This document shows, piece by piece, positions 4,942 through 26,175 of a stretch of DNA of 27,261 bases; position 1 is the stretch's first letter, and each line of letters opens with the position of its first letter. The notes beneath the pieces were generated by a model. That model had not been told where the DNA came from, did not search any database, and saw only the letters and a list, made by a program, of their open reading frames with translations. The DNA is from a virus. The position numbers and the translations under genes were made by a program. Location of the stretch: IMG/VR virus record IMGVR_UViG_3300023096_000016, positions 1-27,261 of that record, one strand, 5' to 3'.

Positions 4942-5271
4942 ATGTCTATTTTCCGCGCGGATATTTTACGTACAGCAGCTTTTGGAACTATTTCGGGAAC
5001 ATATTCAGAGGTAGGACCTGCGGTTACTCATAATTTACGTATATTTAAGATAACAAATACGACTGATGCAGATTTAATTTTCAGTTTTGATGCTATCAAC
5101 GACAATTTATTTGTACCAGCTGGGAGTTTCACTTTATATGATATTTCAGCAAATGCGCCTCCGACAAATTTAATTATGAGCTTGGGCACAGTTTTTTTTG
5201 TTAGATCAAATACTTCTGTTCCCACGTCCGGAGACGTCTGGGTAGAAGGTTTATACGCAAAAGGAGAGTAA
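4942..5271 (+). CDS. Small beta-rich virion appendage protein
   Basis: 109 residues, beta-rich, with FKITNTTDADLIFSFDA, then VPAGSFTLYDISAN and SGDVWVEGLYAKGE at the end. The pattern, a nearly constant C-terminus stating a beta strand with VWVEG, is common among small phage tail-tip or fibre-associated proteins. No enzymatic motif is present. It lies 10 bases after the previous gene and 2 bases before the S74 fibre, so it is transcribed and probably assembled with them. Role inferred from position and composition. Confidence 0.65.
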   Translation: MSIFRADILRTAAFGTISGTYSEVGPAVTHNLRIFKITNTTDADLIFSFDAINDNLFVPAGSFTLYDISANAPPTNLIMSLGTVFFVRSNTSVPTSGDVWVEGLYAKGE

Positions 5272-5273
5272 GA

Positions 5274-6668
5274 ATGAGTCAAGCAGGTTCAGTTTCTGGA
5301 GGCGGTGGCGGTGGCGGTGGTAACGTTGTCGGGCCAGCTTCTAGCGTAGACAATGATATTGTTATATTTGATGGAGTCACAGGAAAAGTTATTAAAGACA
5401 CGGGGATTTCTTCTTTAGCTCCTTCTTTTGTCGGTGATGTATCAACAGGCGGAGACTTTAATCTTCCTGCAACTACGGCTAGCACAGGGAAGTTGACAAT
5501 CGCCGGTGTTGATTTTTTAAGTAACGGGGGAGATGCTTCTAATACTTTTCTCGGCGGAAATGCTGGTAATACAACAAATACAGCAAGCCAGTGTACAGGT
5601 ATTGGACAAGATGCTTTAAATGACATTACTACAGCTGTTTTTAATACAGCCGTAGGCAGTTCTTCGATGAATTCTTTAGTTTCTGGGGGTGGAAATACAG
5701 CTCTTGGATATGCATCAATGTCTTCTTGTGGAGCCAGTGTCGGAGGAAATACAGCTATCGGTTCAACAGTATTGACAGGAACTTCTGCAAATTTTAATAC
5801 CGCAATAGGTTTTGCATGCATGTCCCAGGGGGCAGTATCGGGAAATCAAAATGTGGGTGTAGGAGTTTCAACTTTATTAAGTTTGTCTGCAGGAAACGAT
5901 AATATTGCCTTGGGATATTTAGCTTTGCAAAGCATTACAAGCGGTAGTTCTAATGTTTCAATTGGTACAGTGAGCGGAAGTGGAATTAATACGGGAAGCG
6001 GGAATACAGCAGTAGGTCATGATTCTTTTAATAATGCGATCGGCACAGGATCAGCTTCAAATAATTGTTTTTTTGGAGTTAGCGCTGGTTCTAATATAGA
6101 AAATGCGACCGGAAATAGTTGTTTCGGTTCTGCTTCTTTATTATCAGGCCAAGGTTCTTATAATTCATGTTTCGGGTTCAATTCAGGTATTAATTACAAT
6201 GCGAATGAATCAAGTAATATCTGCATAGCAAACTTAGGTGTAGCAAGTGACAATAATACATTGAGAATCGGAACTCAAGGTAACGGAGATAATCAAGTAG
6301 ATACAACTTTCATTGCAGGAATTTTTGGCGTAACAGTTCCAGCATCTTCACCAGTTGTAATTGATGCAAACGGTCAAATGGGAACCATTGTTTCTTCTGC
6401 AAGATTTAAAGAGAATATTAAAGACTTAGAATCTGAAGCCGTTTTAAATCTAAGACCCGTCACTTTCAATTATATCTCGGACAGTACAAAAGAAAACAGC
6501 GTTGGTTTGATAGCTGAAGAAGTACATAAAGTTCTTCCGAATTTAGTTATTTTAGATGCTGAAAATAATCCATATACTGTCAAGTACGAGCAATTGTGTA
6601 TTTATTTGCTTTCAGAAGTAAAGAAACTAAGCGAAAAGGTAATTGAATTGGAAAAAAGAATAGCATGA
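5274..6668 (+). CDS. Tail fibre with N-G repeats and C-terminal peptidase S74 (intramolecular chaperone) domain
   Basis: 464 residues. It opens with MSQAGS and a Gly-rich flexible hinge (about 1-22). Residues about 85-330 hold at least a dozen imperfect copies of N-T-x-I/V/L-G-x-x-A/S (NTAVGSSSM, NTALGYASM, NTAIGSTVL, NTAIGFACM and so on), like the head repeats of YadA-type adhesins, so a trimeric beta-helix is likely. The C-terminal 90 residues are a peptidase S74 domain: SARFKENI, then LRPVTFNY, GLIAEEV, and a final coiled coil. S74 domains trimerise fibres and then cut themselves off; the expected cleavage is before Ser375, with the Lys of FKENI as partner. The fibre would be the receptor-binding or adhesion element. 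The start has GGAG 8 bases upstream. The following gene shares its N-terminal MSQAGS-Gly hinge. Confidence 0.9.
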   Translation: MSQAGSVSGGGGGGGGNVVGPASSVDNDIVIFDGVTGKVIKDTGISSLAPSFVGDVSTGGDFNLPATTASTGKLTIAGVDFLSNGGDASNTFLGGNAGNTTNTASQCTGIGQDALNDITTAVFNTAVGSSSMNSLVSGGGNTALGYASMSSCGASVGGNTAIGSTVLTGTSANFNTAIGFACMSQGAVSGNQNVGVGVSTLLSLSAGNDNIALGYLALQSITSGSSNVSIGTVSGSGINTGSGNTAVGHDSFNNAIGTGSASNNCFFGVSAGSNIENATGNSCFGSASLLSGQGSYNSCFGFNSGINYNANESSNICIANLGVASDNNTLRIGTQGNGDNQVDTTFIAGIFGVTVPASSPVVIDANGQMGTIVSSARFKENIKDLESEAVLNLRPVTFNYISDSTKENSVGLIAEEVHKVLPNLVILDAENNPYTVKYEQLCIYLLSEVKKLSEKVIELEKRIA

Positions 6669-7090
6669 GCCAAGCAGGTTCATTTTCTTCCTCGGGAGGG
6701 GGAGGCAATGTTCGTAATGGACAAGTACAAGCTTTTGGCGGACAAACAATTGATCTTTTAACAGTTCAAAGTAACATGATTTTTACTACTGATAATAGAT
6801 CTTTTATAGTGACAAATTTGACTACTCGCATTGTCGATTTGCAAGGATTTCCAGAAAGTTCTATAGTTTCAACAGGAGGGTTTAACTCTCCTGATTTTGA
6901 TAATATATTTTCATTCTCTGGAGTTTTTCCGACTTCAATTGATTCAACAACTACTTATACGACTCAAGCTTTAAATGGTTTGGGTACTGTAGTTCCTCCA
7001 AATACATCTCTTTTTATAAATATAGTTTCAACTGCTAGTGACCCTACTGTTTACACAGCTCAAGTTTATTTTTTAGGATTTTACATATAG
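6665..7090 (+). CDS. Tail-fibre-associated protein with Gly hinge
   Basis: 141 residues. The start overlaps the S74 fibre's stop (ATGA), so the two are translationally coupled. The first residues (MSQAGSFSSSGGGG) match the start of the S74 fibre (MSQAGSVSGGGGGG) at protein and DNA level, meaning the two probably share the same attachment point on the virion. The rest is beta-rich and hydroxyl-rich (SFIVTNLTTRIVDL, SLFINIVSTASD, YTAQVYFLGFYI), without known enzymatic motifs. It looks like an alternative or accessory fibre head. Function is inferred from the shared N-terminus and location. Confidence 0.65.
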   Translation: MSQAGSFSSSGGGGNVRNGQVQAFGGQTIDLLTVQSNMIFTTDNRSFIVTNLTTRIVDLQGFPESSIVSTGGFNSPDFDNIFSFSGVFPTSIDSTTTYTTQALNGLGTVVPPNTSLFINIVSTASDPTVYTAQVYFLGFYI

Positions 7091-7103
7091 GAAAATAATA
7101 TAT

Positions 7104-7442
7104 ATGCCGGCTTTCAGTTGGACTAACGTTACAAGTGCTAATAATCCGATCACTTTGGCTCAAGATACAGCGTATTCTTGCAAAGGAAATTCTTTATGTA
7201 TTTTTAAATTACCTTCTTTCTCAAGTAACGGTTTTCGTGCTCAGATTGTAGGCAATACAGCGAATTGGACATTAACTCAAAATGCTAATCAAACGATTCA
7301 AATTAGTCAAACGATGACAACTCCAGGTGCAACAGGAAGTATTTCATCTACTTCTGCTACCGATGTTGTAGAAATTGATTGTATTAATGTTAGTACAGAT
7401 TTTAGAGCAATTATTTTAAGTGGAAATATAACAATTAATTGA
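7104..7442 (+). CDS. Small fibre-cassette protein, single beta domain
   Basis: 112 residues, essentially one beta-rich domain: ITLAQDTAYSCKGNSLCIF, then FKLPSFSS, WTLTQNANQTIQIS, DVVEIDCINVSTDFRAIILSGNITI. The order of elements (LP, then a QI segment near Asn, then a hydrophobic strand with I/L-K/D-C-I near the end) is the same as in the C-terminal half of the next gene, so the two domains are probably homologous. It contains Cys residues but no zinc motif. It is transcribed with the fibres (13 and 9 base gaps). Inferred to be a small virion appendage protein. Confidence 0.6.
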   Translation: MPAFSWTNVTSANNPITLAQDTAYSCKGNSLCIFKLPSFSSNGFRAQIVGNTANWTLTQNANQTIQISQTMTTPGATGSISSTSATDVVEIDCINVSTDFRAIILSGNITIN

Positions 7443-7451
7443 GGTTTTTAA

Positions 7452-7937
7452 ATGGCAACTGGAAATGCACTAAATGCAAATCAGGTAGGTTTACAATCAT
7501 ATGACGGGGCTGGAACTTGGAACGGTAGATCAATCACGGGAACCAGTGGTGTAATTGTTACTAATGGAAATGGAGTTTCTGGAAATCCTACAATTTCTGT
7601 ATCACCAGGTGGTCTTCCGACAACTGAAGTGACAACCGCAACTCAAGCAATGTCTACTAATAATACATATGTAGCAAATAGAGTGGGGGGAGTTGCATTT
7701 ACATTACCAGCAATTGCTGCATTCGGGGATGAATTTGAAGTGATAGGAAAAGGTGGCTTGTGGTCAATTGCGCCAGGTTCTGGACAACAAATTATATTCG
7801 GAAATTTAACGGGAACAGTAAGCACAGGAGTTTTGACAGCTACTAATCAAAATGACTGTGTACGTCTAAAATGCATAACAGCTAATACAACTTTTATTGT
7901 TAAACAAGGCCCGCAAGGCAATCTTACATTGAGTTAG
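7452..7937 (+). CDS. Two-domain fibre-cassette protein
   Basis: 161 residues in two parts. The N-terminal part (about 1-53) contains GRSITGTSGVIVTNGNGVSGNP, which recurs almost unchanged in the next gene. The C-terminal part (about 60-161) contains FTLPAIAAFGDEFEVIGKG, IAPGSGQQIIFG and VRLKCITANTTFIV and resembles the domain that makes up the whole of the previous gene. The protein thus looks like an N-terminal anchoring domain fused to a binding domain that also exists alone. SD is weak (GAGG 9 bases upstream). Expected location: virion surface. Confidence 0.65.
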   Translation: MATGNALNANQVGLQSYDGAGTWNGRSITGTSGVIVTNGNGVSGNPTISVSPGGLPTTEVTTATQAMSTNNTYVANRVGGVAFTLPAIAAFGDEFEVIGKGGLWSIAPGSGQQIIFGNLTGTVSTGVLTATNQNDCVRLKCITANTTFIVKQGPQGNLTLS

Positions 7938-7939
7938 AC

Positions 7940-8473
7940 ATGGCATACAATAACGCTATTAATGCAGGTGTGACAGGATTAGTTTCTACAAGTTCTACCG
8001 GTGTTTCATCAGGTAGAACAATTACAGGAACAACAGGTCAAGTAATAGTGACAAATGGTAACGGAGTCTCTGGAAATCCTATTATTTCTTTAGATCCTTC
8101 CGTCATATCTAATAGAAGCCAAACCGCGGTGACACGTCCTCTAAACACAGCATTTCAAGTTAGTGCTACAAGATGGTCCACTGTGCGCTATGCTATTGAT
8201 ATTTCTACTACAGTTTCTTTGACAGGATCTCAAGTAGGAACTGTAATTTTAGAGATAGCATCAGATGCTGGTTTTACTGCAAACGTTCAAACTATCTTAA
8301 CTTTTAGTAACGGAAATTCCGGTAGCTTAGTTGTTGGATTAGTTTTAACTCAATTGAGTACAGCTTTACCTTCCGCGGACGTTCCGCCTGCATATTATGT
8401 TAGAATAAGAACAGTAAATGTGACAGGAGTTCCAACATTTACTTACAAATCGGGACAAGAAGTATTATTGTAA
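7940..8473 (+). CDS. Two-domain fibre-cassette protein with distinct C-terminal beta domain
   Basis: 177 residues. Residues about 1-52 repeat the previous gene's N-terminal domain (GRTITGTTGQVIVTNGNGVSGNP), but the rest is different: RPLNTAFQVSATRWSTVRYAIDI, GTVILEIASDAGFT, then YYVRIRTVNVTGVPTFTYKSGQEVLL. The last part resembles a C-terminal domain found in tail or fibre proteins of many phages, ending in SGQEVLL. It is the last gene of the rightward fibre run; the oppositely oriented groES ends 16 bases later. A common anchor with different heads suggests modular exchange. Confidence 0.7.
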   Translation: MAYNNAINAGVTGLVSTSSTGVSSGRTITGTTGQVIVTNGNGVSGNPIISLDPSVISNRSQTAVTRPLNTAFQVSATRWSTVRYAIDISTTVSLTGSQVGTVILEIASDAGFTANVQTILTFSNGNSGSLVVGLVLTQLSTALPSADVPPAYYVRIRTVNVTGVPTFTYKSGQEVLL

Positions 8474-8497
8474 TAAATGTTTTAATGATTTATTTTT
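8472..8497. terminator. Weak AT-only hairpin between convergent genes
   Basis: AATAAAT (8472-8478) and ATTTATT (8488-8494) can pair over a 9-base loop and are followed by TTT on the plus strand. It lies exactly where the rightward fibre genes meet the leftward groES gene, where a two-way terminator would be expected. The stem is only A-T pairs, so the call is weak. Confidence 0.3.
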
Positions 8498-8780
8498 CTA
8501 TTGAAGCGATAATATCGTCAGCACGCAAAATGACATACTGTTGTTCTTCAAATGTGACCTCTTGACCGGAGTATTTTTCCATCAAAATAATATCGCCGAC
8601 TTTCACGGGCATGGACATCAACGTGCCTTCTTTATCTTTTTTACCTTCGCCAATTGCTACAACTTCAGCTTGTTCTTGTTTTTTCTTTGCTGTGTCTGGA
8701 AGAATGATGCCGCCTTTTGTTTCTTGAGCATCTAATCTTTTCACAATTACACGATCTGAAAGAGGTTTTATTTTTAGCAT
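8490..8780 (-). CDS. groES: GroES-type co-chaperonin (chlamydia-like)
   Basis: 96 residues, full length for GroES. It starts IKPLSDRVIVKR, has the mobile loop KGGIILPDTAKKK, and ends with YVILRADDIIA. GroES caps the GroEL chamber during protein folding; phage GroES proteins such as T4 gp31 adapt the host chaperonin for folding the phage coat protein. The PDTAKKKQ-x-x-AEV and VGDIILM-KY-GQE-x-T stretches match the pattern I know from Chlamydia GroES far more closely than that of Escherichia coli. There is no GroEL gene in the window, so it would have to work with the host's GroEL. SD is good (AAGGA, about 8 bases before ATG). It is the last gene of the leftward operon. I am sure of the family; the host inference is less certain. 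Confidence 0.95.
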   Translation of the reverse strand: MLKIKPLSDRVIVKRLDAQETKGGIILPDTAKKKQEQAEVVAIGEGKKDKEGTLMSMPVKVGDIILMEKYSGQEVTFEEQQYVILRADDIIASIEK

Positions 8781-8792
8781 ATTTTAATTCCT

Positions 8793-9011
8793 TTATGTTT
8801 TTTTAAATTTCATATTGTAAACGCCATTTGCAGCAATGAATAAATACAAACCAAAAAGTATAGCTTGCTCCCATTGGGAAATCATAACATTATTAATCAT
8901 AAAAATAATATCAGTCACAATCCAAATAGCAAAACCCCACCACTTTCCATTGGACACAAGCCATGCACCAAAAAGTGCAAAGAATGTTGTTATAGGCAAT
9001 AAGATTTCCAC
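8793..9011 (-). CDS. Small three-helix membrane protein, PnuC-like half transporter
   Basis: 72 residues with three hydrophobic segments (about 4-19, 25-43 and 49-66), including FFALFGAWLVSNG, WWGFAIWIVTDIIFM and QAILFGLYLFIAANGVYNM. The Trp-rich second helix and the QA-x-LFGLYL-x-x-A-x-G-x-Y pattern resemble one half of the vitamin transporter PnuC, which imports nicotinamide riboside and is built from two three-helix halves. Such short PnuC-like proteins would need to dimerise. The gene overlaps the end of the P-loop kinase gene by 22 bp; that pairing (NadR-like kinase next to PnuC) is the recognised context of nicotinamide riboside salvage. The transport role is an inference. Alternative: a membrane protein of unrelated function. 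Confidence 0.6.
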   Translation of the reverse strand: MEILLPITTFFALFGAWLVSNGKWWGFAIWIVTDIIFMINNVMISQWEQAILFGLYLFIAANGVYNMKFKKT

Positions 9012-9508
9012 TTTTCGTCCTTTTCAAAAATATTTGATGAGTAAATTTCATGATACATTTTGCCTTTGAGCTTATGAGCAAAAAGTTGATCAATTGATGA
9101 CTGAAATTCTTTATCTTTTGATCTTACACCGTCGTCTTGAATAAACAAATTTGGTCTTACATAAATCAATTTGTCATATTGATTAAGCTTTTGAAAAGCT
9201 AAATTGCTGTACTCAAAAAATAACTCATCTTCTAATTTAAAATATTCAGCATAGACAAAAGAATCAAAAACAGATCTATCACTAATAATCACTTGATTTT
9301 TTTTTGCTTCAAGTTCTTTGCGTGCATGCTCTAGAAATATCCACTTTGCAGCTTCTATTGTCATCTTTTCATTGATAGGAAAAGGACAAGAGCGCGCAAC
9401 TTCTTGAACTATTTTTACGCTTTTTCCGAGTGATTTATAATGAGCTGCTAAGTTGTAAGAAAGAGTTGTCTTTCCAGTTCCGTGAGTTCCGATTATCGCA
9501 ATTTTCAT
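8990..9508 (-). CDS. NadR-like P-loop kinase (AAA_28 family)
   Basis: 172 residues. A canonical P-loop is at residues 7-14 (GTHGTGKT). EVARSCPFPINEK and AAKWIFLEHARKE follow, then IISDRSVFDSFVY (probable Asp of Walker B), and a C-terminal DDGVRSKDKEFQ, which is characteristic of the AAA_28 family that includes the ribosylnicotinamide kinase domain of NadR. The likely reaction is phosphorylation of a nucleoside-like substrate, possibly nicotinamide riboside, but the family also contains kinases with other substrates. There is no N-terminal adenylyltransferase domain. It is directly upstream of the PnuC-like membrane gene (22-bp overlap) and separated from the YqaJ gene by 105 AT-rich bases, which may hold its promoter. 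Confidence 0.75.
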   Translation of the reverse strand: MKIAIIGTHGTGKTTLSYNLAAHYKSLGKSVKIVQEVARSCPFPINEKMTIEAAKWIFLEHARKELEAKKNQVIISDRSVFDSFVYAEYFKLEDELFFEYSNLAFQKLNQYDKLIYVRPNLFIQDDGVRSKDKEFQSSIDQLFAHKLKGKMYHEIYSSNIFEKDEKWKSYCL

Positions 9509-9613: not shown

Positions 9614-10483
9614 TTAAATTAAAAATTGATTGTTTTTATCTCTTGTAATTCTTAAAAAAGAACTGTTTTCTTTTCTGTATTTTTCTAAATTGACATTTTG
9701 AATTTCTGGAATAGATTTGTAATCAATTTGCCCTTTTCTCACCGATTGGTAAAGTGATATACCTCCCCCCTTCGTATTTGATTTGCCAGACATGTCTTCT
9801 AAAGATTTTCTTATCTCTAATTCTTGTTTTTCCAAATCTTTTATTTGAGAGTTTATACTTAACCACTTTTGCGCTGTTTGGTTCCAAATGTCGTCATTCC
9901 TTTCTTTGTAGTCATTTTGAGTTAATTCAGGCGCTTCTAAATGTTCCATGCAATAAAAGAATTCTTTTTCTTTTGAGATTAGATCATCAATATAAGAGTC
10001 ATTTCTATAGATTTCTATGAGTTTAGAAGAGTCTTTGTAGCGGCTGAAATAAAACATTTTATCAAGATTAGCAACAAACATTTGTTGTTGAAGTTGAGGA
10101 TAATACTTGGTCGGTACTATTCCACTCATTGCAACTTCATGATCTTTTTCTCCAGGACATTTTATTTCGACAGCCGTTTTAAACTCAATATCAATTCCGT
10201 CAAGAGATGCCATCATGAATTCATGCTCTTCACTAACTAGAACCTGAGGAAACACAATAATTCCTGTGATTCTTTCAAATTCTTGACGTGCTTCTTCTTC
10301 TTTTCTAAGACCTTCTTTCATTTGCCAAGTCACTGGCTGTTGAAATAAGTTTAGTTTTTCTAACCAAAGCTGATAAGGAGTTTTCCAGGGGGAAACCCCC
10401 ATGATAACCGGGGCATCAGATGCCCCTATTTTTGTTCTTCTTAATGAAAGCCATTCTGGTGATTGTTGAGTTAAGTGCTGCAT
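9614..10483 (-). CDS. YqaJ-family (lambda exonuclease-like) recombination nuclease
   Basis: 289 residues. It begins with the family's RRTKIGASDAPVIMG (about 15-29), then LWLEK, EEARQEFE, and the catalytic set: ASLDG (Asp95), VEIKCPG (Glu106 and Lys108) and the PQLQQQM helix (129-135). This is the restriction-endonuclease-like fold of lambda exonuclease. It would chew 5' strands of linear duplex DNA to leave 3' single strands for the RecT-like partner two genes upstream. Together they form a phage Red-like recombination system, useful for concatemer formation and repair. Its start overlaps the 74-residue gene by 13 bp. The C-terminal 100 residues are a charged helical extension. Confidence 0.92.
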   Translation of the reverse strand: MQHLTQQSPEWLSLRRTKIGASDAPVIMGVSPWKTPYQLWLEKLNLFQQPVTWQMKEGLRKEEEARQEFERITGIIVFPQVLVSEEHEFMMASLDGIDIEFKTAVEIKCPGEKDHEVAMSGIVPTKYYPQLQQQMFVANLDKMFYFSRYKDSSKLIEIYRNDSYIDDLISKEKEFFYCMEHLEAPELTQNDYKERNDDIWNQTAQKWLSINSQIKDLEKQELEIRKSLEDMSGKSNTKGGGISLYQSVRKGQIDYKSIPEIQNVNLEKYRKENSSFLRITRDKNNQFLI

Positions 10484-10695
10484 TCTTCTTCACACGCTTT
10501 AGTTACTTTAGTTAATGAATCTTCTATTTTGTCTTGTTGAAATGTTTTTAAAATAACATTAAATTTGTATCCAATAAGCTCAAATAAATGCTCAAATTCT
10601 TTTTCTGATAGCTTTTCTAAATCAAAATAAAAAATTAATTTGTTTGTATCTGCATCTTTTTTTATTTTAATTTCTAGATTTGATTTAGTTTTCAT
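10471..10695 (-). CDS. Small protein between RecT and YqaJ, unknown function
   Basis: 74 residues. It overlaps the recT-like gene's stop (ATGA) and the nuclease gene's start (13 bp), so the three are coupled. Sequence: a basic start, then LIFYFDLEKLSEKEFEHLFELIGYKFNV and a Cys-ending tail (TKACEEECST). No known family is recognised. The beta-then-helix pattern gives no clear function. The position suggests a partner in recombination, for instance a modulator of the annealing protein or of a host nuclease; that is inference only. Confidence 0.55.
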   Translation of the reverse strand: MKTKSNLEIKIKKDADTNKLIFYFDLEKLSEKEFEHLFELIGYKFNVILKTFQQDKIEDSLTKVTKACEEECST

Positions 10696-11513
10696 TCTTC
10701 TCCCATGGCGACTTGCTGCGTTTCAATAGATTCTAATTCTCGTTCTCTTGCTTCATCTCTTTTTTTAATTGCAGCACTTTTCACTCTATCAAAAAGCGAC
10801 GCCGGCAGGTCTGATAACTTGTTAACAGAAACGGGAGGCTTTCTTATAAATTTCATGACAGACTCAACATAATCTTCATCACATTCAGAAAGTATTTGAA
10901 TTAATTCTGAAGTTTGGTCTTCATTAATTGTTTCAACTACTGTAATTAATTTTGCAGGTTCAACGTGATTAAAATTGTTAGAATTGTTGTTATTCTTTAT
11001 TTCGACTAATTCATCATGTGTGTAACCAGCGCCTTTGATGACATCAGGAAATAATTGTCTAGCAAGCATTGACATTGCGCGATTATAAAGCATCACGCCA
11101 GGGTATTTATCGTATAAGTTTTTTAAAAGACCTGCTCGTTTTGCATCTTCTAAAGAAAATGAAACAGTCCATGTGTCGCCGTTATCTGCTCTTTTTCCGT
11201 TTAAGATACAAATAGAATTGTCGGAACGAGGATCTTTTACAATGCTATGCCCTTGCTGTCTAATAAGAGAGGCCATCATTTCAGATGACATTCCCACTTT
11301 TCCTTGAACAAAATAGAGTCCACCGTTTAAAGCTTCGAGAGGATGAATATTTAAAGACTTTGCTTTTTGAACTATCGCAAATAAACCGGCTTCGCCCATG
11401 GTTTGATAATGTTTTGTTTTCATTAAGTTAGCGCACATATTTTGCATGACTTCGACGTCTTTTAAAATAGCTTCGAAATTAACTTCTTCTCTAATTGCTA
11501 ATTGATTATTCAT
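10692..11513 (-). CDS. recT: RecT-family single-strand annealing protein
   Basis: 273 residues. The core (about 30-175) reads MQNMCANLMKTKHYQTMGEAGLFAIVQKAKSL in pieces, then NIHPLEALNGGLYFVQGKVGMSSEMMASLIRQ and the W-x-V-S-F-S-x-E-DAKRAGL block, all typical of RecT. The C-terminal 80 residues are charged and include ETINEDQTSELIQIL, a linker-type region. RecT proteins bind single-stranded DNA and pair complementary strands. Partner: the YqaJ nuclease one gene downstream. The ATG follows a well placed GGAG, and the gene is third in the leftward operon. Length is normal for the family. Confidence 0.92.
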   Translation of the reverse strand: MNNQLAIREEVNFEAILKDVEVMQNMCANLMKTKHYQTMGEAGLFAIVQKAKSLNIHPLEALNGGLYFVQGKVGMSSEMMASLIRQQGHSIVKDPRSDNSICILNGKRADNGDTWTVSFSLEDAKRAGLLKNLYDKYPGVMLYNRAMSMLARQLFPDVIKGAGYTHDELVEIKNNNNSNNFNHVEPAKLITVVETINEDQTSELIQILSECDEDYVESVMKFIRKPPVSVNKLSDLPASLFDRVKSAAIKKRDEARERELESIETQQVAMGEE

Positions 11514-12166: not shown

Positions 12167-12403
12167 ATGGATTTATTTACTTATTATATGTTGAGAAAAA
12201 AGGAAAAAAGAAGTTTTACAATGAAAGAATTTGCAGACGAAATTGGATGTTCTTACTCTCATTTGTCAAAAATAATACATAATCCTGAGGCTACTGGTAC
12301 AAACCTTGCGCGCAGATTAGAAATTGCTACAAATGGGCAAGTTTCATTGGAAGACTTGGGGAAAGAAAAGAAGGCAAGTAAAGGAAATGTTAAGAAAGAT
12401 TAA
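12167..12403 (+). CDS. Cro/YdaS-like helix-turn-helix regulator
   Basis: 78 residues. The helix-turn-helix runs about 19-43: FTMKEFADEIGCSYSHLSKI, with the recognition helix CSYSHLSKI. It is followed by ARRLEIATNGQVSLEDL, whose ATNGQVSLEDL is characteristic of Cro-like and YdaS-like phage regulators. The tail is Lys-rich. It should bind the divergent operator region just upstream and act as the lysis or early-late switch. The ATG has GGGGGAAG 5 to 8 bases upstream. No larger CI-type repressor is seen in this window, so a lytic lifestyle or a missing repressor beyond the window remains open. Confidence 0.8.
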   Translation: MDLFTYYMLRKKEKRSFTMKEFADEIGCSYSHLSKIIHNPEATGTNLARRLEIATNGQVSLEDLGKEKKASKGNVKKD

Positions 12404-12768: not shown

Positions 12769-13953
12769 ATGATGCTCAACGATCTTCCACCAGAAGTCAG
12801 TGCAATGGGACAGATGCATTTCGAGGGAAATATAGTCCCCGAGATGTGGTATAGTAATATTAAATTCGAGAACGGAAAAGTCGATTTAATTTCAATTACA
12901 CTTCTTTCAGAAATTTGTTACTGGTACAGACCTTCTTACATTCGAGATGAGATGACTGGTCGAGTCATTTGCATTAAAAAGAAATTCAAAGCCGATTTAC
13001 TTCAAAAGTCTAAAAAGGCATTAGCAGAAAAGTTTGGATTTACAGAAAGACAAGTCAAAGATTCGTTAGAAAGACTCGAAGCCAGCGGTTATATCTTTCG
13101 AGATTATCGAACAGTTGTCAATGCATCGGGTGTAAAAATGCCGAATATTTTATTTATTAAAATCTTTCCAGAGAAAATTCAAGAAGTTACTTTTCAAGGA
13201 TTTCCTACATATGACGTTCAAACGTCAGATACCCGACGTTCAAACGTCACATATATGACGTTTCAACGTCAGCCACATCTATATAGTACAAAGACTACTA
13301 CAGAGATTACTAAGAATAACACACCCCCTACCCCCGAAAACGGGGAAGCTGCTATCGCAGCAGTGAGTGAGATTCATTCTAAAAACTTAAGAGATTATTC
13401 AGAAGACGAACGAGAACCCTCTAAATTCGAACAGAAACAACCTTCTAATAGCAAAAACTCTCAAAAAGATGATAAGTGTTCGGTTAAGCAAAAAAACTCA
13501 ACACAAGCGAAATATGAACGTTTTGGAGAATTCGTTAAATTCAAGACAGGTGAGTATGAAACTTTCTGCGAAAAGTACTCGAAAGAAATGATCGATTCGC
13601 TAATTGAAGAGATGAACGACTACTGTGCAGCTTCAAAACCCAAGGGCTACGCTGATTATGCAGCCGCGATGAGGCAATGGATCTCTAGAAGAAAAACAAA
13701 TCCTTCAGCAAACGTTGTTGATAAAAGCAAATGCGAGTTGAATAAGAAAATAGCTCAAAAAATAGAAAACACTCTCGATCAAGTTCCTTCGAATAAGAAA
13801 AAAGTTATTTTTGCAGCTCTAAGCGAAGGAGTAGAAATCTCAGAAAGTCCGTACAAAAAACCGCTTTTCATAAAATATTCTGAAAACGGTTTCGAAGAAC
13901 AACTAAAAAATGCGTTAGATAAATACGATTTATTGAAGTTTATAAAAAAATAA
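12769..13953 (+). CDS. Phage replication initiator with N-terminal winged helix and internal iteron linker
   Basis: 394 residues. The N-terminal domain (about 20-135) is a winged helix of the phage replication-protein type: VPEMWYSNIKF, LLSEICYWYRP, then LAEKFGFTERQVKDSLERLEASGYIFR, where ERQVKDSLERLEASG is the recognition helix. A flexible Thr/Ser/Pro linker (about 145-235) is encoded by DNA with three 22-bp iterons (13212-13271). The C-terminal half (about 240-394) is a charged domain with FGEFVKFKTGEYETFCEKYSKE and YADYAAAMRQWI, a pattern seen in replication proteins that load the helicase. It should bind the iterons and recruit host DnaB, as lambda O and P do together; no separate helicase loader is visible. 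GGGG lies about 8 bases before the ATG. Confidence 0.75.
   Translation: MMLNDLPPEVSAMGQMHFEGNIVPEMWYSNIKFENGKVDLISITLLSEICYWYRPSYIRDEMTGRVICIKKKFKADLLQKSKKALAEKFGFTERQVKDSLERLEASGYIFRDYRTVVNASGVKMPNILFIKIFPEKIQEVTFQGFPTYDVQTSDTRRSNVTYMTFQRQPHLYSTKTTTEITKNNTPPTPENGEAAIAAVSEIHSKNLRDYSEDEREPSKFEQKQPSNSKNSQKDDKCSVKQKNSTQAKYERFGEFVKFKTGEYETFCEKYSKEMIDSLIEEMNDYCAASKPKGYADYAAAMRQWISRRKTNPSANVVDKSKCELNKKIAQKIENTLDQVPSNKKKVIFAALSEGVEISESPYKKPLFIKYSENGFEEQLKNALDKYDLLKFIKK
13212..13271. repeat. Three 22-bp iterons with internal dyads: probable replication origin
   Basis: Three copies of TGACGTT-NN-AACGTCA start at 13212, 13234 and 13256, exactly 22 bp apart; copy 2 begins with C instead of T. Each is a 7-bp inverted repeat (6-bp in copy 2) with a 2-bp centre (CA, CA, TC), and the gaps (GATACC, CATATA) are not conserved. 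They lie inside the initiator gene, between its DNA-binding domain and its C-terminal half, as the lambda origin lies inside gene O. Spacing of about two helical turns puts every copy on the same face. Confidence 0.8.
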
Positions 13954-13967
13954 ATATGGAGTCAAAC

Positions 13968-14189
13968 ATGAGCGCTTGCGATGATTTTATACAAAAAATT
14001 GATAGAGTTTTGCCCGAGATGGCGACTACTCGTGACTTGATAAAAGCTGGAATTTTCAGATCAGATCAGGGAGCAGCAGCAGCAAGAAAAGCTGGAAATT
14101 GTCCGGAGTTTTTTAGATTCAATAACAAAGTAATTTTATATCCAAAGTCTGGAGTTTTAGAATTCTTACGCAAAGCGAAAACTGTTTGA
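13968..14189 (+). CDS. AlpA/excisionase-like winged-helix DNA-binding protein
   Basis: 73 residues from the ATG at 13968, chosen because GGAGT lies 5 bases before it; a less likely ATG is at 13956. Pattern: PEMATTRDLIKAGIFRSDQGAAAARKAGNCPEFFRFNNKVILYPKSGVLEFLRK in sections, matching small AlpA-like or MerR-like helix-turn-helix proteins that have a T-x-x-DLI first helix and an IYPKxGVLEFLR end. These proteins regulate phage or excision genes. It follows the initiator by a few bases and overlaps the next gene, so the three form one operon. Role: probable regulator, not proven. Confidence 0.65.
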   Translation: MSACDDFIQKIDRVLPEMATTRDLIKAGIFRSDQGAAAARKAGNCPEFFRFNNKVILYPKSGVLEFLRKAKTV

Positions 14190-14881
14190 AGATTATTATC
14201 CCTGGAAATCCAATTTCTCAAGCAAGAATGAGATCTGTAGTCAGAAACGGTTTTGTTTCTGTTTATGATCCGCTTAGTAAACAAAAGAATGAAACTAAAA
14301 CTTTTTTAAAGAATTACACAAAAGATTTTCCAAATTTGCAAGATGCGAAAAGTTATTATGTTTGTATTCACTTTTATTTGCCGTTTCCAAAATCAATCAA
14401 TAAATCTGAAAAAAACATACTTAGTTGGATTCGTGATTGTGCTAATAAAAAACCTGATATTGATAATTTAGCTAAATTTTATTTAGATTGTTGTAATGAA
14501 ATTATTTATAGCGATGATCAAAAAATAACTAAATTACATATGACTAAAATTTATAGTCAAAATCCGAGAACGGAAATACACATAATGAAAAATAAAGAAT
14601 TAGATTTACCAAAAGAAGTTTTAGGAATTTTAGAAATTTTTGATATCAACGAATACAAGGAATTTATTAATGAACTTACAAAGATTAACATGCACGTCGA
14701 TTTTTTTAAGGAAGCATCTTCTGACAATACTAATGAAAGTGACATTGAAAAGAATCAAGAAATACTTAAACAAGCAGCGCATTTCTTAAGTTATTTTTCT
14801 GAAAAGTACGCTCCGATTTTAAACAAAGTTAAGAAAAAATGGCCTCTTTATTATCAAAAAGAAGGAATTAAAAATGGATGA
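14186..14881 (+). CDS. rusA: RusA-family Holliday junction resolvase with C-terminal extension
   Basis: 231 residues. The start is TTG at 14186, overlapping the previous stop (TTGA); the sequence from there, KIIIPGNPISQARMR, is the family N-terminus, so this start is preferred over the first ATG, which would remove it. The catalytic set is KPDIDNLAKF (Asp91 and Asp93) and SDDQKI (Asp110/111). RusA cuts four-way junctions to process recombination and replication intermediates before packaging. The family is usually about 120-140 residues; about 90 extra C-terminal residues (charged, helical, LTKINMHVDFFKEASS and on) are unexplained. Partners: RecT and YqaJ on the other arm. Confidence 0.85.
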   Translation: MKIIIPGNPISQARMRSVVRNGFVSVYDPLSKQKNETKTFLKNYTKDFPNLQDAKSYYVCIHFYLPFPKSINKSEKNILSWIRDCANKKPDIDNLAKFYLDCCNEIIYSDDQKITKLHMTKIYSQNPRTEIHIMKNKELDLPKEVLGILEIFDINEYKEFINELTKINMHVDFFKEASSDNTNESDIEKNQEILKQAAHFLSYFSEKYAPILNKVKKKWPLYYQKEGIKNG

Positions 14882-15229: not shown

Positions 15230-15679
15230 ATGCCAGCTGGAAGACCTGAAAAAAAAATTGACTGGGAATTAGTAGACAGAATGCTTGAAGCTAATTGTTC
15301 GGCTAAAGAAATTGCTTCACATTTTGGTATGTATTATCAGACGTTTTATGAAAAAATTGCTGAAAAATACAATACAAATTTTACGAATTATGCAGCATCT
15401 AAGAGAGAGAGCGGACTAGCTCGTTTAAAATTGTCACAATTTGAGAAGGCAATTAACAATTCTAGCACCGGGAATGTTCAAATGCTAATTTGGCTTGGAA
15501 AGAATTTACTCGGACAAAAAGAAACTGTTTCAACAGAGAATTCAGTAAACGAAAATACGATGAGTCAATTTACTGCTTTGATGAAACAAATTTCAGAACT
15601 TCAATCCCCATCGGGAATTTCTTTTAATTCAGACTTGAATATTGACGAGATTAACATAATCAACGAGCAAAAGTCGTAA
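15230..15679 (+). CDS. Phage terminase small subunit
   Basis: 149 residues. It begins PAGRPEKKIDWELVDRMLEA, then a helix-turn-helix: CSAKEIASHFGMYYQTFYEKI (about 24-44), typical of the DNA-recognition end of small terminases. The block GLARLKLSQFEKAI and NVQMLIWLGKNLLGQKE is the family's conserved helical part leading into oligomerisation. It recognises packaging sites on phage DNA and hands it to the large subunit. The large subunit gene is 3.76 kb away with a block of opposite genes in between. The last 79 bases overlap the end of the converging 141-residue gene. No clear SD is visible upstream. Confidence 0.85.
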   Translation: MPAGRPEKKIDWELVDRMLEANCSAKEIASHFGMYYQTFYEKIAEKYNTNFTNYAASKRESGLARLKLSQFEKAINNSSTGNVQMLIWLGKNLLGQKETVSTENSVNENTMSQFTALMKQISELQSPSGISFNSDLNIDEINIINEQKS

Positions 15680-16026
15680 TGATTAATAGGAGATAACATC
15701 GCTTGATTCGGTAAATTTTCAATATCTTCTACCATTTTATCAAGCAATTTTATAAGATTATCTTTTGATGGTGCGCAATTTAAGACGGTGTTTGAAAGCT
15801 TCAATTGCGCATCATTAAATTCATCATCTTTATCTATCACTTGAATAGCAATCTCTCTGTCTGAATCATCTATTCTTAAAAAGTTTTCCCAGTTTTTAGC
15901 AGCACATTCATTACGAACATTACCGCCTGAAATAGAGATCTCGTCACATACGCACTTTACATAATCAAACTCATGAAAAGATTCTAATACTGTTTGACAA
16001 AGTTTGCATTTAGCTCTATTTCTCAT
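15601..16026 (-). CDS. Cys-motif protein (DUF7695-like N-terminus)
   Basis: 141 residues. N-terminal MRNRAKCKLC, ESFHEFDYVKCVCDEISISGG has Cys at 7, 10, 25 and 27 and a FHEFDYVKC spacing that fits a small zinc-binding domain seen in phage hypothetical proteins (I recall it as DUF7695, from memory). The C-terminal 90 residues are acidic and helical, with QLKLSNTVLNCAPSKDNLIKLLDKM. It is last in the leftward accessory block and its 3' end overlaps the small terminase gene tail by 79 bases. Its function is not known; nucleic-acid or protein binding through zinc is a guess. Confidence 0.6.
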   Translation of the reverse strand: MRNRAKCKLCQTVLESFHEFDYVKCVCDEISISGGNVRNECAAKNWENFLRIDDSDREIAIQVIDKDDEFNDAQLKLSNTVLNCAPSKDNLIKLLDKMVEDIENLPNQAMLSPINHYDFCSLIMLISSIFKSELKEIPDGD

Positions 16027-16321
16027 TAGATTCCTCTATTTTTGGTACTTTAGGTAAAGGCATCCAATGGGTAAATAATATGTTTTCTCCCTCAAATCCC
16101 GCATCACATGTCCATAGAGTTCCACTATTTCCGCTATTTTTAAAATAGTTTACAACGTGCATATTTCCAACGTAAGAATATATTAAAATTCTTTGATAAT
16201 GATTTTCAGGCAACTGATCTTTAACACTAATCCATCCAGCCATTTTCATTTTTGATAATGGGTTTCCTTTGTCATCTACAAAACACATCCTATTTAAATA
16301 TTCCTGATTATTGTTTATCAT
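16016..16321 (-). CDS. DUF551 protein (copy 1)
   Basis: 101 residues. The DUF551 pattern is clear: GWISVKDQLPEN, RILIYSYV, and FTHWMPLP at the end. DUF551 is a small beta domain widespread in phages with no known biochemical function. It starts 14 bases inside the next DUF551 gene, so the two are coupled and probably arose by duplication. An N-terminal extension (MINNNQEYLNRMCFVDDKG) precedes the domain. Likely accessory function; no enzyme motif. Confidence 0.75.
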   Translation of the reverse strand: MINNNQEYLNRMCFVDDKGNPLSKMKMAGWISVKDQLPENHYQRILIYSYVGNMHVVNYFKNSGNSGTLWTCDAGFEGENILFTHWMPLPKVPKIEESNEK

Positions 16322-16619
16322 TTTTTATTATCCTTTTCATTGAAACATCAAATTCATCACTATCAGATAAATGTTCCATTATTATCATAATTTTTGGTTT
16401 ACTTGGTTTGTCAAGATTATAAGAATCTACTCTTTGCCAAAAATGTGTCCACCTACATTTATCATCTTCAAAAGAATACCACCCTTCACTAGGATCGCAT
16501 TCAATAGCTTCTCTTCCCACATAAACGCGACAGCCTAAAAGCACTTCTCTATCCCTCCAAAAAATCCAAACAACTTCAAAAGGAGAGGGGAGTTCATCTT
16601 TAACACTTATCCAATTCAT
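16308..16619 (-). CDS. DUF551-like protein (copy 2)
   Basis: 103 residues, opening NWISVKDELPSPFEVVWIFWRD, the DUF551 signature, then VLLGCRVYVG and WYSFEDDKCRWTHFWQRVDS, where WTHFWQR replaces the usual THWMPLP ending. It continues past the domain with a helical tail. It is diverged from the other copy (16016-16321), but the WISVKDELP opening and the aromatic ending match. Both lie in the leftward accessory block. Function unknown. Confidence 0.65.
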   Translation of the reverse strand: MNWISVKDELPSPFEVVWIFWRDREVLLGCRVYVGREAIECDPSEGWYSFEDDKCRWTHFWQRVDSYNLDKPSKPKIMIIMEHLSDSDEFDVSMKRIIKNDKQ

Positions 16620-18192: not shown

Positions 18193-18750
18193 CTAAAACT
18201 CTTCATTATGTTGACAGCAATTAAATACAAATATTCCTCGTCTTCTCCACATTCTAATAACTTTTGGTCTATCATCGAATACGAAATCAATAATCTTACC
18301 TTCTGCAATAACTTCATCTAACCACTTTTCTTTAAGCTGATCATCTCGGGTATTATCACCGATGGGGCGCATTTTTAAATGGTTTTTCCAATCAATATCT
18401 CTTGCAAAGTGTTTTTCTAACCAATTTATTGTTTTTAATTTTATAGATTCACATCGACCACTCCATATTTGAATCGGATGACCTATTCCGAATTTTTCAC
18501 GTAATGCGTAAAATTGAAATAAAACGGGAAGTATTACTTCATCTTGATCACACGCTTCATAGAATGCTTTCCAGTCTTGTTCCCATAGACCTGGTTGACG
18601 ACCACACAAACAAATTTGATTGAAATCTTTGTTTTTATCTTTATCTGTCAAAAAGTCATGGCATAAACCACAATAATCTTCGGGAGCTTGAACAAAATGT
18701 CTTCTATGCTCACAATCTGCAAGTGTTCCGTCGAGTTCAAATATGATCAT
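18193..18750 (-). CDS. HAD-family phosphatase resembling polynucleotide 3'-phosphatase domains
   Basis: 185 residues. Motif I is FELDGTLAD (residues 4-12): canonical DxDGT but with Glu5 where the nucleophile Asp should be. Motif II is IWSGR (Ser97), motif III is Lys140 in DDQLKEKW, and motif IV is FDD (159-160). LKMRPIGDNTRDDQLKEKW and FDDRPKVIRMWRRRGI are close to T4 polynucleotide kinase-phosphatase and related phage phosphatases. Such enzymes remove 3' phosphates to repair cut RNA or DNA. An insertion at about 27-50 carries C27xxC30 and C47xC49, possibly a zinc site. The missing nucleophile could mean inactivity or altered chemistry. It starts overlapping the previous gene (ATGA). Confidence 0.75.
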   Translation of the reverse strand: MIIFELDGTLADCEHRRHFVQAPEDYCGLCHDFLTDKDKNKDFNQICLCGRQPGLWEQDWKAFYEACDQDEVILPVLFQFYALREKFGIGHPIQIWSGRCESIKLKTINWLEKHFARDIDWKNHLKMRPIGDNTRDDQLKEKWLDEVIAEGKIIDFVFDDRPKVIRMWRRRGIFVFNCCQHNEEF

Positions 18751-19437: not shown

Positions 19438-20721
19438 ATGACTGAAGCACCTTTAAGCACTAAGCAGCTAGAATTTGTAATTAAATCGACCGCACATTGG
19501 AATTTAGCACACGGCTCAGTGAGAACAGGCAAAACTTACGCTACTTTGTTTCGCTTTATGCAAGCTGTTAATGAATGTCCAGATAGTCAAATTTATATGG
19601 TAGGTCACACAGTAGATACGATTTATCAAAACGCTGTGAGATTAATATTCGAAAGTCCTCAGTTGTCAGTTTTTAAGCCGTTCTGTTCGTGGTTCAGTGG
19701 TCATAAAGTATTAAAGTTTCGAGATAAAACTATTAAATGCTTGGGAGCAAAAGACACGGGAGCTATTGGACAATTCCAAGGTAAGACAATGTCACTTATA
19801 TATTGTGATGAGATGACTTTGTATCCTGAGTCTATTATATCTATGATAGATACTCGTCTTTCGTTACCTCATTCCATGGGCTTTGGTTCAATGAACCCTA
19901 CATATCCAAATCACCCTATTAAAAAATGGATCGATGCTGGAGAAGCAGGAGACCCAAACTATTATTCATTACACTTTACATTAGAAGATAACCCGTATGT
20001 TGACGATGCTTACAAACAGCGTATTAAAAATAGCTCTAGTGGCGTGTTCTATAAAAGAAATTATCTCGGACTATGGTGCTTGGCAGAGGGGGCTATTTTT
20101 GATTTTTTTGATTATAACATTCATACTGTTCGATTGCCCCCCACTTCTCCTAATTACTATATTGCTTCTATTGATTATGGAACTTCCAACGCCTTTACAT
20201 GTTTGGTTATCGGAGTATCTACAGGAGAATTCTATCAAACTCCAAAAATGATGTGGGTTGAAAAAGAATATTTCTGGGACTCAAAAAAAACAGGTAAACA
20301 AAAAGTTAACTCAGAGTTTGCAGATGATGTTGTAGAGTTTTTACAGCCATACGGAATCACACAATTATATATAGATCCCTCCGCGGCATCATTTCAATTA
20401 GAATTATCTCGACGTGGATTACACGCAGTTCATGCTAATAATGATGTATATAACGGTATTCAAAAGATGGCCGCTGCCTTGCATAACGGTGAATTGCTAA
20501 TATGCAGAGAGTGTAAAAATACAATTAGAGAGATTGAATCTTACGTATGGGATAACAAAAAGTCTGAAACTGGTGAAGATGCTCCAGTCAAAAAAGACGA
20601 TCACTGCATGGACGCTCTTAGATATGCAGTTTATTCTCATAAGATATCTGAATACAACCCTTATAAAGACCAACAGCGTTCTCAAGATTATAGACAGAAT
20701 AGATTCAGTAGAGGTTTTTGA
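19438..20721 (+). CDS. Phage terminase large subunit (packaging ATPase/nuclease)
   Basis: 427 residues, the usual length for the group. Walker A is GSVRTGKT (26-33). Walker B is IYCDE (121-125), Glu125 being catalytic. The coupling motif is GSMNPTYPNHP (150-160). Nuclease residues: Asp246 (SIDYGTSN), Asp313 (YIDPSA), and DDHCMDALRYA (Asp388, Asp392). The enzyme cuts the concatemer and pumps phage DNA into the prohead through the portal. The tail (KDQQRSQDYRQNRFSRGF) is basic. No strong SD is visible. It starts after a divergent promoter region and is separated from the small terminase gene by the opposite accessory block. Portal lies 3.25 kb downstream. Confidence 0.93.
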   Translation: MTEAPLSTKQLEFVIKSTAHWNLAHGSVRTGKTYATLFRFMQAVNECPDSQIYMVGHTVDTIYQNAVRLIFESPQLSVFKPFCSWFSGHKVLKFRDKTIKCLGAKDTGAIGQFQGKTMSLIYCDEMTLYPESIISMIDTRLSLPHSMGFGSMNPTYPNHPIKKWIDAGEAGDPNYYSLHFTLEDNPYVDDAYKQRIKNSSSGVFYKRNYLGLWCLAEGAIFDFFDYNIHTVRLPPTSPNYYIASIDYGTSNAFTCLVIGVSTGEFYQTPKMMWVEKEYFWDSKKTGKQKVNSEFADDVVEFLQPYGITQLYIDPSAASFQLELSRRGLHAVHANNDVYNGIQKMAAALHNGELLICRECKNTIREIESYVWDNKKSETGEDAPVKKDDHCMDALRYAVYSHKISEYNPYKDQQRSQDYRQNRFSRGF

Positions 20722-23976: not shown

Positions 23977-26175
23977 ATGTTGTTTAACAACATATTAGAA
24001 TCGAGGTTTATCATTTCTCTACACCTCCCCACATGGAATAACAACATAGAGCCTCATCAGGGAAACATCCGGCAATGGATGGATAACCTCTCTGCACGAT
24101 TTCAGCCATTAGAGCAATCTAGATGGAATCAATCTAATATTGACACGCTTTTTCACGCTGGTTGTCAGCAGTATGTTAATAGACATTTTGGATTCAATCC
24201 TTCCTCTAATTCTAATCAGTTTTATTTCAATCTAGTGCAACAACCTGTAAATATGATCACTGGTTATCAAAGACAGCATAGAAAGAATATTACTTATCAA
24301 GCTGCTCAAGGAACAGATTCAGAAACTACAGATCAATACACTAGTTTGATTATTCATAATAACAATACTGAAGGTGTTAACGAACAGTTTTCAAAGTCAT
24401 GTGAATTGTCAGCAGTTGCAGGAATGAATTTACTTCAACCCTATCTAGACTATACTGGAGACGATCCTGCACAGGGACAACTGAAAGTGAAGATTTGGGA
24501 ATACAATTCATTCATGGTTGATCCATACTTTAGAAGCCCGGACATGTCCGATGCTCAATTTGTATGGTGTCAAGAATACATTAGCAGGGGAGAAGCTGAG
24601 AGACGTTTTCCTGACAAGTTAGATCAAGTTAGACCTATGTCTGCATCTCCACAAAGATACGGAAACTTTTACTTTCTTCCCGAAAATCAAAACATGGCTA
24701 GAAACGATCTGATGGTTCTTTCTTACATATGGTATAAATGGAAAAGAAAGAAAAAACGTCTTTATTCTAAAAAGATGAATTTGTTTTTCGATTATGCAGG
24801 AGGAGACGAACAACTTGACGCTATTCAAAGAAATATTCCAGATCTTCAGCCAGTTAATGTCGAAGTTCCAACATGGAAAGTGGCCGTTGTTCTGAACGAT
24901 CAAATGATGTATCAAGGCAATAACCCGCTTGGATTTGATAATTGCCCATTTGTAGCTAACTTCTGGAACTATTCACCTCATATTAACTATCCAGATCTCA
25001 GAGATAGATCTTTAGTAAGATGTATGAGAGATGCAAACTTCTTATTTAACTACAAAGTACTTCAAAATAACGATATCGCAGCAGCTACAATTAACGCAGG
25101 TTGGAAGAGAAAAGTAGGCGCTGTAGCTAATGAAGACAATTTGAAGAAAGCTGGTCAAGGCTGGGATGTAGTCATTCGTGAAGGCTACGAAATGACAGAT
25201 GTAGAGAAGATTATTCCTAGCGCTGTTCCTCAGTCTGATTTGGAACTTGCTCAACAAATGGCTGAACTTGTTTTTCAAGTATCTGGTTTAAATATGGAAA
25301 ACTGGGCCGGTCAACAAGATAAGCAGATTTCTACATTAACTATGATGATGAAACAAGCTGCTAATCTCATGGTCTTTCAAAAGTATTTTGATCAATGGGA
25401 TTATGCTCTAAAGCTTCTTGGTGATCTTCAAATGCAGATTGTTCTTAACAATTGGAACGCTGAAAAAGTTAAGCTTTTAATTGGGGAAGAACCAACACCT
25501 TATTTCTATTCTAAGATATTTGCAAAGTATAAAGTAATTGTTGAAGAGGGTATTGAGACAGCTACTCAGCAAAATATGCAAGCTCAGCAAATGTTAGAGA
25601 TTAATGAACGCTTTGGAAGAGAAGTTATTCCGCCTTCTATGATTATCAAAGACATGAACATCCAAGGTAAATCAAAAATATTGAAGTTCTTAGAAGAGCA
25701 AGAAAAACAAGCGGCAGCTACTCAACAAGAAACTCAAACAATCGAACATGCGTTTCAAGAAGCTAAACTTAAAGAGTTGTATTCGAAAGCTACTGCAAAT
25801 ATTGCTACAGCAAGAGAAAGACATGGAAGAGCTGAAGCAGATGTAGGATTATTTGAAGAAAGGCTTTCTGAGATCACTCAAAATAGATCAATGGCTCTTA
25901 AAAACAAAATGGAAGCCCTTGAAAAGTTACTTGAAATCATAGCAAAATACGGTGAAATGGATGCTATGATCCAGGGAGAGACGCTTCAACAAGTCGAATA
26001 TCGACAAGAAGTAAGCGAAGATCGAGAAAAGCAAGACGCTAAAGATACATCAGAAAGTAATAAGTTTATTGCCGATCTTCTGAGAGGAATGCAAAACCTT
26101 CCTCAACAAAATGAACAAATGGGGCAAATGTCTCCTATGAATGAACAAATGCCAGAAATGGCACAAATGATGTAA
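23977..26175 (+). CDS. P22-like portal protein
   Basis: 732 residues, close to the 725 of P22 gp1. Conserved patterns: RFQPLEQSRWNQSNIDTLFHAG in pieces, FYFNLVQQPVNMITGYQRQHRK (portal wing region), VKIWEYNSFMVDPYFRSPDM, FVWCQEYISRGEA, and the crown and barrel with long C-terminal coiled coil (about 540-690, EKQAAATQQETQTIEHAFQ in parts), as in P22's long barrel. A Gln/Met-rich tail ends it. The portal is the dodecameric ring through which DNA is packed and ejected. The start at 23977 has no ribosome-binding site; an in-frame ATG at 24079 (MDNLSARF) is an alternative. Its partners are the terminase upstream and the four small genes downstream. Confidence 0.9.
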   Translation: MLFNNILESRFIISLHLPTWNNNIEPHQGNIRQWMDNLSARFQPLEQSRWNQSNIDTLFHAGCQQYVNRHFGFNPSSNSNQFYFNLVQQPVNMITGYQRQHRKNITYQAAQGTDSETTDQYTSLIIHNNNTEGVNEQFSKSCELSAVAGMNLLQPYLDYTGDDPAQGQLKVKIWEYNSFMVDPYFRSPDMSDAQFVWCQEYISRGEAERRFPDKLDQVRPMSASPQRYGNFYFLPENQNMARNDLMVLSYIWYKWKRKKKRLYSKKMNLFFDYAGGDEQLDAIQRNIPDLQPVNVEVPTWKVAVVLNDQMMYQGNNPLGFDNCPFVANFWNYSPHINYPDLRDRSLVRCMRDANFLFNYKVLQNNDIAAATINAGWKRKVGAVANEDNLKKAGQGWDVVIREGYEMTDVEKIIPSAVPQSDLELAQQMAELVFQVSGLNMENWAGQQDKQISTLTMMMKQAANLMVFQKYFDQWDYALKLLGDLQMQIVLNNWNAEKVKLLIGEEPTPYFYSKIFAKYKVIVEEGIETATQQNMQAQQMLEINERFGREVIPPSMIIKDMNIQGKSKILKFLEEQEKQAAATQQETQTIEHAFQEAKLKELYSKATANIATARERHGRAEADVGLFEERLSEITQNRSMALKNKMEALEKLLEIIAKYGEMDAMIQGETLQQVEYRQEVSEDREKQDAKDTSESNKFIADLLRGMQNLPQQNEQMGQMSPMNEQMPEMAQMM

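Follow-up and report, generated by a model that had tools for sequence, protein, structure and literature searches.

A GroES co-chaperonin gene of apparent Chlamydia type in a tailed phage from an uncultivated clade

The virus contig IMGVR_UViG_3300023096_000016, whose entire 27,261 bases form the window analyzed here, carries an intact gene for a GroES co-chaperonin. The reading we favor, at a probability of about 0.6, is that a tailed phage of ∼40 kb from an uncultivated clade carries this co-chaperonin of bacterial origin as a lid for the GroEL of its host, and that the donor was a bacterium with a Chlamydia-type GroES. Phage-borne GroES as such is already known, and the window gene adds another member; such genes are present in other tailed phages as well and are thus an established kind of phage gene. 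Among the sequences compared, the window protein is nearest to that of Chlamydia, a hint that these viruses, of which little is known, may have a host akin to chlamydiae.

The product of the gene matched Pfam Cpn10 (PF00166) over residues 3 to 93 with 106.6 bits against a cutoff of 21.1 (E = 6.7e-31), PHROG 3188, "co-chaperonin GroES" (E = 5.1e-25), and several NCBIfam GroES models. Its open reading frame starts with ATG, and an AAGGAA upstream of the start provides a Shine-Dalgarno sequence. The strings quoted in the preliminary description, GGIILPDTAKKKQ, VGDIILMEKYSGQE, and YVIL, were all located in this reading frame. That description had also taken the contig for a tailed double-stranded DNA (dsDNA) phage with terminase, P22-like portal, and tail fibers around GroES, and this was borne out by the genes found (Table 1), which place the contig among the Caudoviricetes; TerL and the portal lie 11 to 15 kb from GroES and are not its direct neighbors. 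The contig has no terminal repeat, and near-complete relatives that share its portal mostly measure ∼38 to 43 kb, from which it follows that about one-third of the phage genome is missing, including the major capsid gene, which lies outside the contig.

Table 1. Features of the 27,261-base window, in order of position
Feature	Positions	Strand	Basis or remark
Tail fiber protein with C-terminal S74 intramolecular chaperone domain	5274-6668	+	PHROG/Pfam
Tail-fiber-like gene, convergent with GroES	7940-8473	+	clusters with 7104-7937 and relatives
GroES/Cpn10, 96 amino acids (canonical length); mobile loop (GGIIL) and roof-loop region present	8490-8780	-	Pfam, PHROG, NCBIfam
72-amino-acid membrane protein with similarity to the C-terminal half of PnuC, a nicotinamide riboside transporter	8793-9011	-	weak PF04973
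P-loop kinase of NadR/ribosylnicotinamide-kinase type (AAA_28), overlapping the half-PnuC gene	8990-9508	-	
RecE-like exonuclease (YqaJ)	9614-10483	-	PHROG/Pfam
RecT-like annealing protein, in the leftward cluster with GroES	10692-11513	-	PHROG
Small HTH protein	12167-12403	+	weak HTH_3 match
Replication initiation protein	12769-13953	+	PHROG
RusA-like Holliday junction resolvase	14186-14881	+	PHROG/Pfam
Terminase large subunit (TerL)	19438-20721	+	PHROG/Pfam
P22-like portal protein, clade marker	23977-26175	+	PF16510, E = 1.1e-47

A compact set of leftward genes leads from the RecT-like protein through a small gene, the RecE-like exonuclease, the NadR-type kinase, and the half-PnuC, and it ends with GroES. 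The replication genes, RusA, TerL, and the portal lie to the right of this cluster, and the tail fiber genes lie to its left and converge on it. The overlap of the kinase and half-PnuC genes, together with a gap of only 12 bp between the end of the latter and GroES, suggests cotranscription; promoter-like sites were not commoner here than in shuffled sequence. The small HTH protein, encoded divergently, may regulate the leftward operon. The tight gene order also bears on mis-assembly, in which a fragment of a bacterial groES would have been fused to a phage contig. This is very improbable, since GroES sits amid phage genes, 16 bp from the tail-fiber-like gene on one side and 12 bp from the half-PnuC on the other, with no groEL neighbor, and since cpn10 genes occur in other members of the clade. 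Within the cluster, the half-PnuC and the NadR-like kinase (8793-9508, minus strand) may constitute a minimal NAD-precursor salvage pair. The kinase match is moderate (AAA_28, E = 5.4e-19; PHROG 2107 thymidylate kinase, E = 1.3e-25; PHROG 3462 nicotinamide-nucleotide adenylyltransferase, E = 9e-14), and the PnuC match is weak (PF04973 profile positions 113 to 172, E = 2.2e-4, 21.7 bits, below the Pfam cutoff of 27.3).

GroES caps GroEL via a mobile loop, and the T4 co-chaperonin gp31 substitutes for host GroES in the folding of the T4 capsid protein; RB49 CocO is likewise a phage-encoded co-chaperonin. The 27,261-base window contains no groEL gene, and we propose that the window protein relies on the GroEL of its host. 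It would form the usual heptameric lid and dock on the infected cell's GroEL through the hydrophobic tripeptide of its mobile loop, helping to fold proteins of the phage, for example the capsid protein, when host GroES is limiting or unsuited, a role that we infer from T4 gp31 and similar phages. The position of the gene in the recombination cluster suggests that GroES is made before the structural proteins; most likely it acts with host GroEL as the product of the last-expressed gene of an early recombination operon.

The phages encoding T4 gp31, RB49 CocO, and the co-chaperonins of PHROG 3188 share with the window phage a tailed morphology and a GroES-like gene without groEL, and use of host GroEL is expected for all of them. 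The sequence of gp31 is highly diverged from bacterial GroES, whereas the window protein keeps a canonical bacterial sequence and length, and its gene, unlike those of gp31 and CocO, lies among recombination genes. Flavobacterium phage immuto (H34) also carries a phage-borne GroES, but there groEL adjoins groES, whereas the window has no groEL.

The preliminary description had read the protein as having the wording of Chlamydia GroES rather than the enterobacterial one. Our Chlamydia reference was one provisional Chlamydia trachomatis GroES sequence, not drawn from a database record, which stands alone for the Chlamydiota in all comparisons, and both the comparisons and the trees were made without environmental chlamydiae, other PVC phyla, Babelota, and Spirochaetota. 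NF001533 was the best NCBIfam model for the window protein (132.3 bits, cutoff of 99; next model, 111.1 bits) as well as for the provisional C. trachomatis protein (144 versus 109 bits), and these were the only 2 of the 14 GroES proteins scanned for which it was the clear winner. Eleven others, from Pseudomonadota, Nitrospirota, Gemmatimonadota, Bacteroidota, a fecal phage, wastewater contigs, and two other phages of the clade, scored best with other models, and the GroES of clade phage G003 gave a tie between NF001537 and NF001533. The reading of NF001533 as chlamydial rests on the provisional C. trachomatis sequence; the window protein's own score with the model does not. Besides the best model, the two proteins share GGIILPDTAKKKQ and the VGDI..L..KYSGQE region, and they differ in that the window protein lacks the N-terminal extension and is phage-borne without groEL. 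A literature search did not find the chlamydial GroES wording in print.

In pairwise comparison the provisional Chlamydia protein was 57% identical to the window GroES (107 bits), the best among 398 Pseudomonadota genomes 52 to 54% (100 to 102 bits), the best plasmid records 50 to 51%, and the best among 148 Nitrospirota genomes and the best phage records each 47 to 48%. The margin in raw similarity is small, 107 versus 102 bits, and the statement that the gene was "this close to a host gene" was too strong. A direct search of IMG/VR found no close relatives of the window GroES; a search with a two-row alignment found a clade relative at 45% identity and all others at no more than 37%.

In a maximum likelihood tree of all rows, the window, provisional Chlamydia, and G003 proteins formed one clade (support, 99/98), and with long branches removed (97 columns) the window and Chlamydia proteins paired at 100/96. 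Omitting the provisional Chlamydia row left the window protein paired with that of G003 (97/96). Constraining the window protein to the proteobacterial rows was disfavored (15.3 log units worse, p-AU = 0.035), and constraining it to the Nitrospirota rows was rejected (16.6 log units worse, p-AU = 0.008), within a resolution limited by the 96 amino acids and 97 columns. Within the sequences compared, assignment to the Chlamydia type is supported by the best model and the tree, and the single provisional reference makes it a lead. We would place the origin of groES, or of its ancestor, in a bacterium with a Chlamydia-type GroES, with moderate support; this donor may have been the host or a neighbor within the same protist.

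Genes for cpn10 were sporadic in the clade. They exceeded the family cutoff in 4 of the 47 long clade contigs, with weak matches in 3 more, and they occupied differing positions relative to the window gene map, which indicates an accessory gene gained or moved more than once. One of these proteins, that of G003, also groups with Chlamydia and is 45% identical to that of the window.

The clade itself is defined by the portal, for which one pair of patterns retrieved 342 relatives in IMG/VR, 63 to 71% identical among the matches listed. No relative was present among 50,697 phage records, and the portal is without an isolate relative. A scan of 84,980 species genomes returned only two, at 60 to 62% identity, on metagenome-assembled genome (MAG) contigs assigned to Nitrospiraceae UBA9159 and Pseudomonadota REEB109. 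Both contigs are phage throughout with no clear host flank; their binning is for that reason weak host evidence, and they are probably mis-binned. These two MAGs would point to a common free-living soil host (Nitrospirota, Pseudomonadota, or Bacteroidota), with the Chlamydia likeness of GroES arising by convergence in a short, fast-evolving phage protein. The short alignment and the long branches of phage cpn10 would suit such convergence; the constrained trees, the lack of host flanks on the MAG contigs, and a portal profile that matched only the starting MAG and none of 397 other Pseudomonadota genomes tell against it, and we regard it as unlikely.

The proposal that these are tailed phages of Chlamydiota goes beyond the type of the GroES. 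Under it, a phage of Chlamydiota living in soil or freshwater protists would have captured the groES of its host; the broadest form is that a large, widespread clade of ∼40-kb tailed phages infects environmental chlamydiae in protists, has repeatedly acquired host groES, and includes the first tailed dsDNA phages of the phylum. The step from GroES to such a host is plausible, and we hold the host claim, in either form, tentatively, at about one chance in three. In its favor are the GroES type and tree grouping; the occurrence in one clade of two such GroES proteins, 45% identical and differently placed, which fits repeated or old exchange; a clade G+C content of 33 to 47%, which fits Chlamydiota and is not specific to them; and the near absence of the clade from sequenced genomes and isolate phages, as expected if the hosts are rarely sequenced intracellular bacteria. 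Against it, GroES was the only shared gene found, and neither a contig from chlamydiae nor a CRISPR spacer turned up, with spacers and chlamydial chromosomes lying outside the data searched, and the 84,980 species genomes, presumably with chlamydial ones included, gave only the Nitrospiraceae and Pseudomonadota MAGs. That scan held no portal match in a chlamydial genome, as would equally be expected of a lytic phage. TerL was absent from the Simkania plasmid pSn, and the gene families listed for the relatives, mostly phage families with integrase, resolvase, ParA/ParB, RtcB, and glycosyltransferases among them, included none specific to chlamydiae. CRISPR-Cas is present in some Chlamydiota (PMC8242063).

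The known phages of chlamydiae are microviruses (PMC8466579), in agreement with the preliminary description, which spoke of mainly microviruses, and a search of the literature at hand found no paper on tailed phages of chlamydiae. These Chlamydiamicroviruses (Chp1-4, phiCPG1, and phiCPAR39) are Microviridae with single-stranded DNA genomes of ∼6 kb (PMC8466579), in contrast to the tailed dsDNA phage of the window, and no gene common to the two was seen.

About as likely is a host of low G+C content from some other group of bacteria that live inside cells or bound to particles, such as the Babelota, Legionellales, or an unsampled PVC group, with a GroES either native in type or exchanged inside a shared protist. 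GroES by itself names no host, those groups were missing or thin in the sampled set, and the ParA proteins of some relatives were nearest to mixed groups that include Cardinium and Bealeia. A point against such a host is that none of the 398 Pseudomonadota genomes held a GroES closer than the provisional Chlamydia protein, with sampling within orders thin.

Other routes to the host were uninformative. TerL is of a generic PBSX type and matched 1,175 phage records from many hosts (∼35% identity in the rows listed), and it adds nothing for Chlamydiota; the portal led to no isolate phage and only to the two phage-fragment MAG contigs. The nearest taxa for ParA of the relatives were mixed, with the endosymbionts Cardinium and Bealeia among them, and the tRNAs present in relatives gave no tie to any host.

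If the chlamydial host is correct, tailed dsDNA phages of Chlamydiota would give the study of obligate intracellular bacteria access to transduction, receptor biology, and genetic tools. Should the host be another, the clade, given its many IMG/VR portal relatives, is still common in environmental data, and the GroES gene is a concrete lead to its host, whichever that is.

The clade mixes lifestyles, as indicated by integrase, resolvase, ParA, and tRNA arrays in some relatives. Stand-alone ParA was seen in seven sequences (L008, L009, L010, L024, L025, L043, and L049) and suggests that some members of the clade form phage-plasmid lysogens. The tRNA arrays comprise 10 genes in L112 (G008; 5076-8645) and 5 genes in L104 (G019; 16132-16513), and several other clade phages have a single tRNA-Asn (gtt) in common. 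In the REEB109 contig (L083:15000-18200), homing-endonuclease-like open reading frames on the opposite strand split a capsid-like gene region and resemble mobile introns. No Rfam family matched within the 27,261-base window. On its minus strand, positions 18193-18750 encode a polynucleotide kinase 3'-phosphatase-like HAD domain (PF25109, E = 6.8e-19), which, with the RNA ligase and RtcB of some relatives, suggests RNA repair genes. A DUF7695 protein (15601-16026, minus strand), encoded opposite to and upstream of TerL, is conserved in 52 of 113 clade sequences.
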